From Gemmatimonadota bacterium (lineage in GTDB: Bacteria; Gemmatimonadota; Gemmatimonadetes; Longimicrobiales; Gaopeijiaceae): a stretch of 64,000 bases of DNA. How positions within the stretch are numbered: position 1 is the stretch's first letter; each line of letters opens with the position of its first letter. Of this stretch, positions 3,282 through 38,145 are shown one piece after another. Where the stretch lies: contig JAJCZZ010000091.1 in the NCBI GenBank assembly GCA_029262115.1, positions 62,001 to 126,000 of the forward strand, written 5' to 3'. Made by a program: the position numbers and the translations under genes. Below the pieces are notes generated by a model. That model had not been told where the DNA came from. It searched no databases and worked only from the letters and a program-made list of their open reading frames with translations.

Positions 3282-5932
3282 TGGACGAGCCGAGTCGCCG
3301 AAGGGTGTTCCGTACGCTGCTCCACCTCTTCCCTCGATCGTTTCGGGATGAGGCCGGGCGGGACATGGAGCACGTCTACGCCGACATGTACGACGAATGG
3401 GAGCGGGAACGGGAAGGGGCGGGACTCCGGTTCTGGCTCTCCCTGGTGTGGGACGCTGGGCGGCACGCCGCCGCCGTGCACCTCGATCGAGCCATACGCA
3501 ATCCGTTGACGGGGGGTGGAGGAGAGATGATGGGATCCGTTCTGGGAGATGTCCGGTTGGGGCTGCGGCAACTCGTGCGCCACCCCACCTACGCGCTGAC
3601 GGTCGTAGTCCTCGTGGCGGTGGGGATCGCAGGAAACGCCGCCGTCTTCCGGGTCTTCAACGGCCTCTTTCTCCGGCCCCTGCCGTTCGAGAACGCGGAG
3701 CGGCTCGTGGACCTGGACGAACGCGCGGACGCCTGGGACCTCGAGTACACGGGCGTCGCGTGGCCGGACTACGTCGCCTGGTCGGAGGGCAATCGGACCT
3801 TCGAGGCCATGGCCGTCTACACCGGGGTCGGTCGGAATCTCGCGGACGACGGCGAAGCGGAACGGATCGACATGATTGCCGCCACGCACACGATCGACGA
3901 CGTACTCGGAATCGCTCCGATCCTCGGTCGGATGTGGTCGGCGGCCGAGGACGTGCCCGACGGCCCTCGGCTCGTCCTCTTGACGGAAGGCTTCTGGAAC
4001 GACCGGTACGCTCGCGACCCGGGCGTCTTGGGCACGGCAATCACGCTGGACGGACAGGCCTACGAGATCATCGGTGTCCTACCCGCCGTGGCCGAGTTGC
4101 TCGACGGCGCGGATGTCTGGAGCCCCCTTCAGGGCGACGGCGATGGCTGGTACCTCACAGGACTCGGCCTGCTACGCGAAGGATTGAACCTCGCGCGCGC
4201 CGCCGAAGATCTCACGGCCGTGCACAAGGGCATGATCTCCGAGCGGGACGTGAACGAGGTCACGACGCCTGTCGTGACACCGCTGCGCGACCGGTACCTC
4301 GGAGAGAGCCGGCTCGGGGCAGAACTTCTCCTGGCCGCGGTGGGCCTCGTCCTCCTGATCGCGTGCGCGAACATTGCCGGGTTGGCCACCGCCCGCGCCC
4401 TGTCGCGATCGGGCGAGCTCTCGGTGCGCCGTGCCCTCGGCGCGCCACGCGGCCGTGTCGCCCGGCAGCTCCTGACCGAGAGCGCGGCGCTCGGCCTGGT
4501 GGGAGGCGCGATCGGTCTCGCGCTCGGCGTCTGGGGATCCCGCGCGGTGGTGGAAGCCCTGCGCGCCCGCGGAGACTTTCCGGCATGGGTCCAGTTCGAC
4601 CTGGATGCCCGTTTTCTCCTGGTCGTGGCCTCGGTGACGATCGGCTCCTCCCTCCTGTTCGGAATCGTGCCGGCTCTGCGCTCGACGCACGCGCCGGGTC
4701 GGTCGGCGAGCGGTCGGGTCACCGGCTCGCGTGTCCGGCGGCGCGGCACAGCCACCCTCGTGATGGGCGAGGTGGCCCTTGCGGCCGTCCTCCTGGTCGT
4801 GGGTGGGCTCAGCCTCCTCGACATCTCCCGCTTGAACCGTGTCGATCCGGGCTTCACGACGGAGAACGTAATCGCGTATCGGTACCAGCTCCCGCGGCTG
4901 CGGTACCCGGACCAGGCCGCCGCCGTAGCGTACGCGGACCAGGTCGTGGCAAGCCTGGAGGGCCTGCCCGAGGTCGAGTCGGCCACGGTAGCCAGCCTCC
5001 TGCCGCTCTTCGATCATCGGGGCTGGTTCTTCGTGGCGGAAGGGGCTCCCCCTCGCGCGGACGACGAGCCGAATCCGGTCGTCCTCACTCGGTCGGTGGG
5101 CCCGAACTACTTTAGGACGCTGGGAATCCGCATGCTCCAGGGCCGAGCGTTCACCGACCGGGACGGCCGGGAGGACGAGTCCTGGGTGATTATCGTGAAT
5201 GAAGAGTTCGTGGCCAGCCACCTGGATGGCGACCCGGACCCGATCGGGCGTCGTGTGGCGAACGGCACCGGTCCTCCATCGAGCGACGACCGGTGGTTCG
5301 AGGTTATCGGCGTGGTGCGCGACGTCCGGCACTACGGGGTGGACCAGGCCATGCGGCCGGGCGTGTTCCTGCCCTACCGGTCGCAGGGATCTCGCTACGC
5401 GCAGATCGGCGTGCACACACGTGGCGACGCATCGGAAGCCATGGCGAAGGTCCGGCGAGTCGCACTCGACGTGGATCCGGAGGTTCCGCCGTTCGGGATG
5501 ATCCTCATGGAAACCCGCTTCGCCGACACCCTCTTCGTCCGAAGGGCGTCCTCTCTTCTGTTCGGGGTGTTCGCCGCGGTGGCGCTCCTTCTGGCGGTCG
5601 CGGGAATCTACGGCGTGGTCTCCTACGGGGTCGGACAACGTCGGAAGGAGATCGGCATCCGGATGGCCGTGGGAGCCAACGCCTCCGAAGTGCTCGCGCA
5701 GGTCGTCCGTAGGGGGATGGCTCTGGTGGTTCTCGGCATCGGACTCGGGCTCGTATCCGCCTTGCTGGCGGCTCGACCCATGGCCTCACTCCTGGTCGAT
5801 GTCCGACCGAGCGAGCCGTTGGTCTACGGCCTGGTAGCGGGCATTCTCCTGGCGGTCGCGGCGCTCGCGAACTACCTGCCCGCGCGGCACGCCGTCACAT
5901 CGGACCCGATGGGCGTGTTGCGAGACGAGTAG
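3281..5932 (+). CDS. ADOP-family ABC transporter permease (MacB/FtsX type)
   Basis: An 883-residue permease with the ADOP layout: a short soluble N-terminal segment (LFPRSFRDEAGRDMEHVYADM), a transmembrane helix near residue 110, a MacB-type periplasmic core domain beginning around LFLRPLPFENAERLV, a three-helix FtsX block (about 345-480), a second periplasmic domain and a C-terminal FtsX block (about 775-880, ending ARHAVTSDPMGVLRDE). No ATPase gene is adjacent, which is the 'orphan' feature of the family. ADOP proteins are thought to act with separately encoded MacB-like ATPases in efflux or lipoprotein handling; the substrate is unknown. It is translated from an ATG overlapping the PadR stop. 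Confidence 0.92.
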   Translation: MDEPSRRRVFRTLLHLFPRSFRDEAGRDMEHVYADMYDEWEREREGAGLRFWLSLVWDAGRHAAAVHLDRAIRNPLTGGGGEMMGSVLGDVRLGLRQLVRHPTYALTVVVLVAVGIAGNAAVFRVFNGLFLRPLPFENAERLVDLDERADAWDLEYTGVAWPDYVAWSEGNRTFEAMAVYTGVGRNLADDGEAERIDMIAATHTIDDVLGIAPILGRMWSAAEDVPDGPRLVLLTEGFWNDRYARDPGVLGTAITLDGQAYEIIGVLPAVAELLDGADVWSPLQGDGDGWYLTGLGLLREGLNLARAAEDLTAVHKGMISERDVNEVTTPVVTPLRDRYLGESRLGAELLLAAVGLVLLIACANIAGLATARALSRSGELSVRRALGAPRGRVARQLLTESAALGLVGGAIGLALGVWGSRAVVEALRARGDFPAWVQFDLDARFLLVVASVTIGSSLLFGIVPALRSTHAPGRSASGRVTGSRVRRRGTATLVMGEVALAAVLLVVGGLSLLDISRLNRVDPGFTTENVIAYRYQLPRLRYPDQAAAVAYADQVVASLEGLPEVESATVASLLPLFDHRGWFFVAEGAPPRADDEPNPVVLTRSVGPNYFRTLGIRMLQGRAFTDRDGREDESWVIIVNEEFVASHLDGDPDPIGRRVANGTGPPSSDDRWFEVIGVVRDVRHYGVDQAMRPGVFLPYRSQGSRYAQIGVHTRGDASEAMAKVRRVALDVDPEVPPFGMILMETRFADTLFVRRASSLLFGVFAAVALLLAVAGIYGVVSYGVGQRRKEIGIRMAVGANASEVLAQVVRRGMALVVLGIGLGLVSALLAARPMASLLVDVRPSEPLVYGLVAGILLAVAALANYLPARHAVTSDPMGVLRDE

Positions 5933-36505: not shown

Positions 36506-36815
36506 GGGTCCAGCGAAGCGGAGACCCCGACCCTGGTGGATCGTTCAGGTATTCGTCAGCGCGGCACGCGAAGGCGCGACCCGTCGTTGGGCGAGGGCGG
36601 GTGGACGGGTCCAGCACGGCGGAGTGACGGATGCCTCGGACGAGTGCTACCGAACCGGCACTATTTCGGGTCCAGCATGATCGGGTGACGAACGCGGGGA
36701 ACGAGTGCTATCGAACCGGCACTATTTCGGGTCCAGCACGATCGAGTGACCGGCGCGGCCGACGGCGGCGACCGAAGAGGGGCGGTGGACGGGTCCAGCA
36801 TGGTGGAGTGACGGT
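36506..36815 (+). repeat. Intergenic repeat family B (61-62-bp period)
   Basis: Four units with GGGTCCAGCA cores at 36607, 36668, 36729 and 36791, each followed by an AGTGAC-like element and joined by GAACGAGTGCTATCGAACCG / GCACTATTTC-type spacers. A separate core at 36506 belongs to the hairpin type of family A (GGGGTC at 36505-36510 pairing GACCCC at 36523-36528). No ORF explains the periodicity. Confidence 0.85.
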
Positions 36816-36884
36816 GCGGCTCAACGCGGCAGGACACCCGCGAGCGGAGCGAGTCGGTCGCCGATATAATGCGCCCCTCCCTGA

Positions 36885-37119
36885 GGGTCCAGCGAAGCGC
36901 CGACCCACCACCCGCACGCTCAGATATCCCGAACGAGAAAGAAACGTCCGACCGGGGTCCAGCGAAGCGCCGACCCCGATCGCCCGCACGCTCCAGACGT
37001 CTCGAACGTAAAGAACGTCCGACCGGGGTCCAGCGAAGCGGAGACCCCGACCGTCCGCACGCTCCAGACATCCCGAACGCAAAGAACGTCCGACCGGGGT
37101 CCAGCGAAGCGCCGACCCC
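36885..37119 (+). repeat. Intergenic repeat family A (70-71-bp period, hairpin core)
   Basis: Four units with GGGTCCAGCGAAGCG cores at 36885, 36955, 37026 and 37097. Except in the first, weaker copy, each core is a hairpin: GGGGTC ... GACCCC enclosing CAGCGAAGCG. The loop contains GCGAAGC, a sequence known to form an exceptionally stable DNA mini-hairpin. Spacers are near-identical (CCGCACGCTCCAGACATCCC, GAACGCAAAGAACGTCCGAC). It lies between the cyclophilin gene and the end of menB. Confidence 0.9.
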
Positions 37120-37190
37120 GACCGCCCAGATCTCCCGACCGCACCCACGTACCAACGCCCCGAACCCCCGAACAGTTCGAGGTGCGTCAG

Positions 37191-37289
37191 ATTGGATGCT
37201 AGGCAAGGAAGCTGAGCACCGGATTCCGAGGAGTAGCGAAAGCTACTTCGCAGGAAACGGAGCGGAAGCAGACGCAGCATAGCGCCAAT
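37191..37289 (+). ncRNA. Candidate structured RNA element with GAAA-capped hairpin
   Basis: About 99 nt that folds on itself by inspection. Closing stem: ATTGG (37191-37195) with CCAAT (37285-37289), then GCTA (37198-37201) with TAGC (37280-37283). Inner arm: GCT (37211) with AGC (37261), CCG (37219) with CGG (37258), TTCC (37224) with GGAA (37253), a GA/GCA internal loop, and an 8-bp stem GGAGTAGC/GCTACTTC (37230-37249) capped by GAAA. The sequence following it, CGCCAATATGACGCGCCCCT, has a near copy at 36859-36882. It is either a structured RNA or a folded mobile repeat; no known family recognised. Orientation is chosen from the GAAA loop. Confidence 0.5.
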
Positions 37290-37305
37290 ATGACGCGCCC
37301 CTCCC

Positions 37306-38145
37306 CTACCAGGGGAGCCACGGATACTGTGAAAAATCCGGCTCCCTCTTCTCATTGTAGGCGTTCTTCCCTTCCTGCCCCTGCTCGGTCATGTAGAACA
37401 ACAGCGTGGCGTTCCCCGCCAGCTCCTGAAGCCCGGCCTGTCCATCCACGTCCGCATTGAAGGCGCTCTTCAGCAAACGAATGGCCAGCGGAGACTTCTT
37501 CATGATCTCACGCGCCCAGGCCCATCCTTCCGCCTCGAGTTCGTCGATGGGAACGACCTTGTTGACCAGCCCCATCTCATAGGCTTCGTCGGCGGAATAC
37601 TGGCGGCACAGGTACCAGATCTCGCGGGCGCGCTTCTGCCCGACGATGCGCGCCAGGTAGCTCGATCCGAAGCCGCCGTCGAACGAGCCCACGATCGGAC
37701 CGGTCTGCCCGAACACGGCATTGTCGGCCGCGAGGGTCAGGTCGCATACGACGTGGAGCACGTGCCCGCCGCCGATCGCGTAGCCCGCGACCAGAGCGAT
37801 GACCGGTTTCGGCATGGAGCGGATGTAGCGCTGGAGCTCGAGGACGTTCAGACGCGGCACGCCGCTCTTCCCCACGTATCCCGCTTCCCCTCGGACTTTC
37901 TGGTCGCCCCCGCTGCAGAAGGCGTACTTCCCATCCTTCGCGGGGCCGTTTCCGGTCAGGAGCACGACACCGATCGAGATGTCCTCGCCGGCGTCCCTGA
38001 AGGCCTCCTGCATCTCCAGGAGAGTGTCGGGCCGGAACGCGTTCCTCACTTCGGGACGGTTGAACGCGATCCGCGCCACACCGTCACACTTGTGATAGGT
38101 GATGTCGTCGAACTGCTTGACTTCCTTCCAGTCGGGCTTGGTCAT
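37306..38145 (-). CDS. menB: 1,4-Dihydroxy-2-naphthoyl-CoA synthase
   Basis: A 279-residue crotonase-fold enzyme. MenB-specific features: [90 protein letters not shown] and the C-terminal [15 protein letters not shown]. It closes the naphthoate ring from o-succinylbenzoyl-CoA. It is the last gene of blaI-menF-menD-menB, overlapping menD by 4 nt (ATGA). Confidence 0.97.

Follow-up and report, generated by a model that had tools for sequence, protein, structure and literature searches.

A conserved palindromic element behind menB of a Gemmatimonadota bacterium is probably one copy of a mobile repeat family found in several phyla

Results

Fold and extent of the element behind menB

The window analyzed here, a stretch of 64,000 nt from a Gemmatimonadota bacterium, carries an imperfect palindrome immediately behind a minus-strand gene (Table 1), which we take to be menB from its operon context and from knowledge of the sequence, and which the first-pass annotation had correctly given as the neighbor. 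Orthologues of menB are present in 49 of 58 genomes of the family. That annotation had proposed a 99-nt structured RNA, or folded repeat, closed by ATTGG/CCAAT and GCTA/TAGC and containing an 8-bp stem with a GAAA loop, with more structure than expected by chance. All of these stems are found at the positions it gave, and as RNA the stretch 37191-37289 reaches a minimum free energy of -41 kcal/mol; 200 dinucleotide shuffles gave -24.4 (sd 2.9), corresponding to z -5.8, and not one of them folded as well. However, the outer arms had been missed: folding of 141 nt revealed nine further pairs outside the 99-nt stretch, between GGTGCGTCA and TGACGCGCC, and the element is therefore 119 nt long, with z about -5.4 to -5.8 against shuffles. 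Covariance models of the element match the window copy at 37180-37301 with 120-136 bits. With menB on the minus strand, the strand folded in the first-pass annotation would appear in a menB transcript as its reverse complement.

Table 1. Features of the element and its surroundings in the window
Feature	Position	Strand	Basis
Whole element, imperfect palindrome	37181-37299	+ (folded strand; antisense to menB)	141-nt RNA fold, covariance model match, homologous copies
Outer stem, 5' arm GGTGCGTCA	37181-37189	+	Pairs with 37291-37299; outer pairs vary two-sidedly between copies
Outer stem, 3' arm TGACGCGCC	37291-37299	+	141-nt RNA fold
ATTGG arm, then a bulged A (37196) and a U.G wobble	37191-37195	+	Fold; copy alignments
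Apical hairpin GGAGTAGC-GAAA-GCTACTTC	37230-37249	+	Fold and alignments; corresponds to cross-phylum motif GAGGMGTA..TACKYCGCAG
menB (1,4-dihydroxy-2-naphthoyl-CoA synthase, presumed)	37306-38145	-	Open reading frame; TAG stop 37306-37308, 6 nt from element
Apparent end of a second, truncated element copy beside the hairpin array	36859-36881	+	Repeat match, own-genome BLASTN

The flanking sequence CGCCAATATGACGCGCCCCT had been reported as repeated next to a hairpin array and as linking the two. The repeat is real, with a second copy at 36859-36878 carrying 3 mismatches (chance 0.01) and 87% identity over 23 nt, but it looks more like the end of a truncated copy of the element than like a connection to the array. 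The array itself, three tandem units of 71 nt at 36943-37155 that each hold a GGGGTCCAGCGAAGC..GACCCC hairpin, belongs to a distinct repeat family; this hairpin occurs in five copies from 36503 on, and three tandem units of 61 nt beginning with CGGGTCCAGCAYGRYSGRGTGAC lie at 36606-36788.

Copies in Gemmatimonadota and in other phyla

A BLASTN search of the own genome with the element as query returned about ten copies or fragments, and two successive covariance models, R1 and the 122-nt model R2, extended this count. R1 found 12 copies in the own genome and matches in 14 of 59 relatives, while R2 detected the element in 32 of 298 Gemmatimonadota genomes, from six families, with 52 matches in G038, 28 in G011, 20 in the genome of the window and 18 in G029. 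The element is thus short, non-coding and multi-copy (122-nt model, up to 52 matches per genome), as expected of a MITE. About 20 copies are scattered over this genome, and the one behind menB belongs to them; it is not an RNA specific to menB. The copies in G038 are closely similar to each other, and G011 carries tandem arrays of the element with a period of about 134 nt. A second hairpin, GGCGACCCRCTCGC..GCGGGTGCC, is nested within several of the own-genome copies (L006, L007, L009, and L002).

Scanning with GAGGMGTACN(4-6)GTACKYCGCAG, a pattern that describes the apical stem, gave at least 118 DNA stretches, which by their record titles come mainly from Desulfobacterota, with others from Nitrospirota, Bdellovibrionota, Myxococcota, Acidobacteriota, Methylomirabilota, and Rokubacteria. 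Of 79 loci searched with R2, most yielded full-length elements (81 matches). The family occurs in at least seven bacterial phyla. Common to the phyla is the sequence CAAGGC ... GAGGCGTAC/GTACG.CGCAG ... AACGC.G, of which the apical part was contained in the search pattern while the CAAGGC and AACGC parts were not. No match to the element was obtained in collections of plasmids and phages, and no Rfam family reached its gathering score at the element in the window, in relatives or in the ten loci scanned from other phyla. In a Thermodesulfovibrio locus (L403:4331-4744), a tRNA gene (4500-4586) lies between two copies of the same orientation.

Covariation and the folded strand

In seven aligned own-genome copies, 97.6% of the cells of 43 pairs are paired, and 22 pairs show two-sided changes compared to 9.2 in shuffles. 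Among 61 copies, 41 of the 43 pairs differ on both sides and 91.8% of cells are paired; shuffles reach 66.7%, and controls with slid partners 33-45%. The alignment of the 61 copies was fitted to the model and leans toward structure, yet the slid controls remain far off. In an alignment of 81 copies, nearly all from outside Gemmatimonadota, two-sided change is seen at 39 of 43 pairs. Compensatory changes, which the first-pass annotation had named as support for its stems, are thus strongly present in the own-genome, Gemmatimonadota and cross-phylum alignments, indicating that the structure is real and conserved.

The strand folded in the first-pass annotation is the more stable of the two by folding energy in 55 of 61 copies of one set and 67 of 72 of another, and both the bulged A and the U.G wobble are conserved among Gemmatimonadota copies (U.G in 49 of 56). 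In the other phyla, G.U pairs are commoner than A.C (218 versus 55) and G.A mismatches commoner than U.C (244 versus 34); the model biases the first of these counts to some extent, whereas the second should be much less affected. Taken together, the lower energies, the kept U.G and the excess of G.U and G.A most likely identify the folded strand as that running antisense to the upstream gene.

Position behind stop codons

A copy was scored as stop-adjacent when a reading frame of 100 codons or more ended at a stop codon within 11 nt of the antisense-side end of the element. This applied to 19 of 61, 27 of 77, 19 of 30, and 29 of 81 copies in alignments A3, A4, A5, and A8, respectively (A4 and A5 have G038 copies in common), as compared to 4, 2, 1, and 3 copies on the other side and 2-3.5% of random positions. 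Outside Gemmatimonadota, the folded strand was antisense to the gene in 29 stop-adjacent copies versus 3. TAG was enriched among the adjacent stops (39 of 77, background 125 of 399). Exceptions with the same sense as the neighboring gene are the composite elements of G029 and some copies of G000 and G214. Element copies sit within operons that we take, from knowledge of the sequences, to be nuo, suf, atp, and gro, as well as within presumed ribosomal protein clusters.

Insertion sites and ends

A search of 29 loci from other relatives found no copy of the element behind menB; there the gap to the next gene is usually no more than about 120 nt. In G320 (L233), from another genus, the sequence TAG followed by ACGGGGGCGTGAAATCGGC behind menB resembles one arm of the element and is possibly a decayed copy.

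At the nuoI/nuoJ junction the element is present in G000, G014, and G033, whereas the two genes abut or overlap in most readable relatives, including G001 from the genus of the window and G305 from the genus of G014. Between sufB and sufD, G000 and G014 carry it in one orientation and G305 in the opposite one, while G001 is empty. For both junctions, the most plausible reading is that the element entered independently in different genera. Such independent entry, together with the absence behind menB in the relatives, argues that the element is mobile. Vertical inheritance of the shared junctions was considered as well and is ruled out at nuoI/nuoJ and sufB/sufD by the empty or differently oriented congeners. 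Given the many copies per genome, the relatives without one behind menB and the insertions elsewhere, a menB-specific RNA can be set aside; nothing ties the element to menB, and of the first-pass description the fold and the second option, a folded repeat, have stood, the repeat being dispersed and mobile.

The same junctions are used repeatedly (nuoI, sufB, ychF); ychF directly adjoins the element in three genomes of two phyla (L345, L410, and L417). Between nusG and rplK, G161 and G212 each carry a copy, and these have different stems that are both well paired, which may reflect either selection since the insertion or the substitution of one copy by another.

Two subfamilies have terminal inverted repeats (TIRs), as MITEs do, namely AAGGGTGTTGCGAAAAGGGGG and AAGGCYGTTGAWAAA; the window copy has paired outer arms only. 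In G029, a full element of about 270-380 nt has inverted ends AAGGGTGTTGCGAAAAGGGGG, flanks CTAG/TTAA/TTAG and two modules in inverted orientation, and in G038 the element reads CTAG, AAGGCCGTTGATAAATCG ... AACAGCCTT, CTAG, so that YTAR (CTAG/TTAA/TTAG) stands on both sides in both subfamilies. Inverted pairs of elements occur in G029, G018, G144, and G188. No clear target duplication was seen at the window copy or at the other 122-nt copies checked.

Discussion

The window feature is probably a copy of a non-coding, MITE/ERIC-like mobile palindromic element of about 120-170 nt per module, and the element is best regarded as non-autonomous, with an unusually conserved, strand-specific folded core. 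We base this on the dispersed copies, the independent entries, the covariation, the siting at stop codons with the antisense strand folded, and the TIRs with YTAR flanks in two subfamilies. In this lineage, the element would have entered directly behind the stop codon of menB. An enzyme acting in trans would recognize the ends and the folded core and insert at TA/CTAG-like sites, and stop codons would survive such insertion because TAG, TAA or TGA is preserved at the junction. Against this reading stand the absence of a recurring transposase or recombinase family near the copies, the DUF772 loci without matching ends and the missing target duplication at the 122-nt copies checked; moreover, a plain TIR element entering the palindromic CTAG should give both orientations. 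The near-fixed orientation cannot follow from a symmetric target alone; it could be due to selection on the transcript, comparable to ERIC at the 3' ends of Yersinia genes, or to an insertion step acting on the folded antisense strand. Once inserted, the element would be cotranscribed as its reverse complement and form a 3' or intercistronic hairpin. Quite tentatively, a folded single strand conserved across phyla might be what defines a whole class of mobile elements; a widely shared enzyme would read the folded antisense strand in concert with transcription or replication of the upstream gene and insert these elements behind stop codons in a fixed orientation.

Several features of the element would also suit a functional cis-acting RNA, located in 3' UTRs or between cistrons and selected at operon junctions, for instance for mRNA stability or processing. 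The strong covariation, the fixed orientation behind stop codons, the filling of the same junctions in several genera and the nusG/rplK pair, still paired despite differing sequence, are consistent with such a role. However, the element is patchily distributed and missing from congeners at junctions that are filled elsewhere, the strand that folds better and carries the wobbles runs antisense to the transcript, and the G038 copies are numerous and closely similar, making this explanation unlikely. The covariation could in turn arise without selection, if template switching perfected quasi-palindromes, and the own-genome changes are indeed nearly all two-sided with few wobble intermediates; yet the bulged A, the U.G, the CAAGG/CAACG loop and the GA loops have been retained uncorrected across many lineages, and we consider this process very improbable as the source.

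A family of intrinsic transcription terminators would account for hairpins immediately after stop codons, and A5/T5 tracts are present in the outer stem of several subfamilies. The window copy nevertheless lacks a T-tail, no site with a GC hairpin and T-run was found at the element, and copies lie inside the nuo, suf, gro, and atp operons. Downstream genes are co-directional in 32 of 45 cases, near the baseline of 344 of 442, which speaks against a terminator role, and there is accordingly little probability left for it. Even less probable is mobilization as a REP/REPIN-like repeat, with a Y1 (RAYT) transposase working on folded single strands, although the element resembles REP/REPIN/BIME sequences in being palindromic, extragenic, strand-asymmetric, sited behind genes and, in the four genomes named above, arranged in inverted pairs. 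It is several times longer than the 20-40 nt of REPs (PMC3733652), and the absence of Y1_Tnp from most carriers (G000, G011, G014, G029, G038, G214, and G141) largely refutes this idea.

Known bacterial MITE-like repeats are usually described from a single genus or family and as linked to a local insertion sequence. Integron attC sites, a system of another type, lie behind a stop codon and use the antisense (bottom) strand for folding, as our element most likely does; the element differs in having a conserved core instead of a variable tip and mostly solitary copies behind core genes, and inspection of the alignments revealed no invariant attC core sites (GTTRRRY/RYYYAAC), the end columns varying freely. 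The nearest functional precedent, by analogy, appears to be ERIC (IRU/RU-1), an imperfect palindrome of about 127 bp that is dispersed, intergenic and MITE-like with TA ends, and that at the 3' end of Yersinia genes has an orientation-dependent effect on mRNA stability (PMC2229807, PMC10969869). On the published descriptions, ERIC and the element are alike in size, palindromy and dispersal, and ERIC's orientation effect is a further parallel. In contrast to ERIC, described from Enterobacteriaceae and Vibrionaceae (PMC10969869), the element spans many phyla and has copy-specific outer stems. Correia/NEMIS and RUP are MITEs as well, foldable repeats of 100-200 bp with TIRs and TA ends, RUP being linked to IS630-Spn1 (PMC2229807). 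The G029 and G038 subfamilies share with them the TIRs, here flanked by YTAR, whereas the strand-specific folded core is conserved across phyla and no cognate insertion sequence was found for the element.

Our search of open-access PMC papers turned up no account of an element of this kind from Gemmatimonadota, or of one that has these ends, and the family appears to be previously unlisted. Its interest lies in a single folded core that at least seven phyla share, with the sequence conserved and the pairing kept by compensatory change. The core is very often beside stop codons, there nearly always in one orientation, and has entered the same core-gene junctions repeatedly. If confirmed, it would be a mobile element of wide range and a natural source from which core operons gain 3' and intercistronic hairpins. 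With the covariance model, the family can be searched for at once.

Clustering of the genes near the copies gave no recurring transposase, recombinase or partner gene, and G029 holds no long TIR pair enclosing a transposase gene. DUF772 transposases are present in 9 of 24 genomes, and an IS5/IS1182-type partner was dropped as a candidate since no ends matching the element's TIRs were found at these loci. Because few transposase families were covered, the failure to find a cognate insertion sequence is not proof of its absence. In a single case, an IS110-type transposase adjoins one copy of the element in G025, with a partial second copy (L105:2275-2464) just upstream of the transposase gene.
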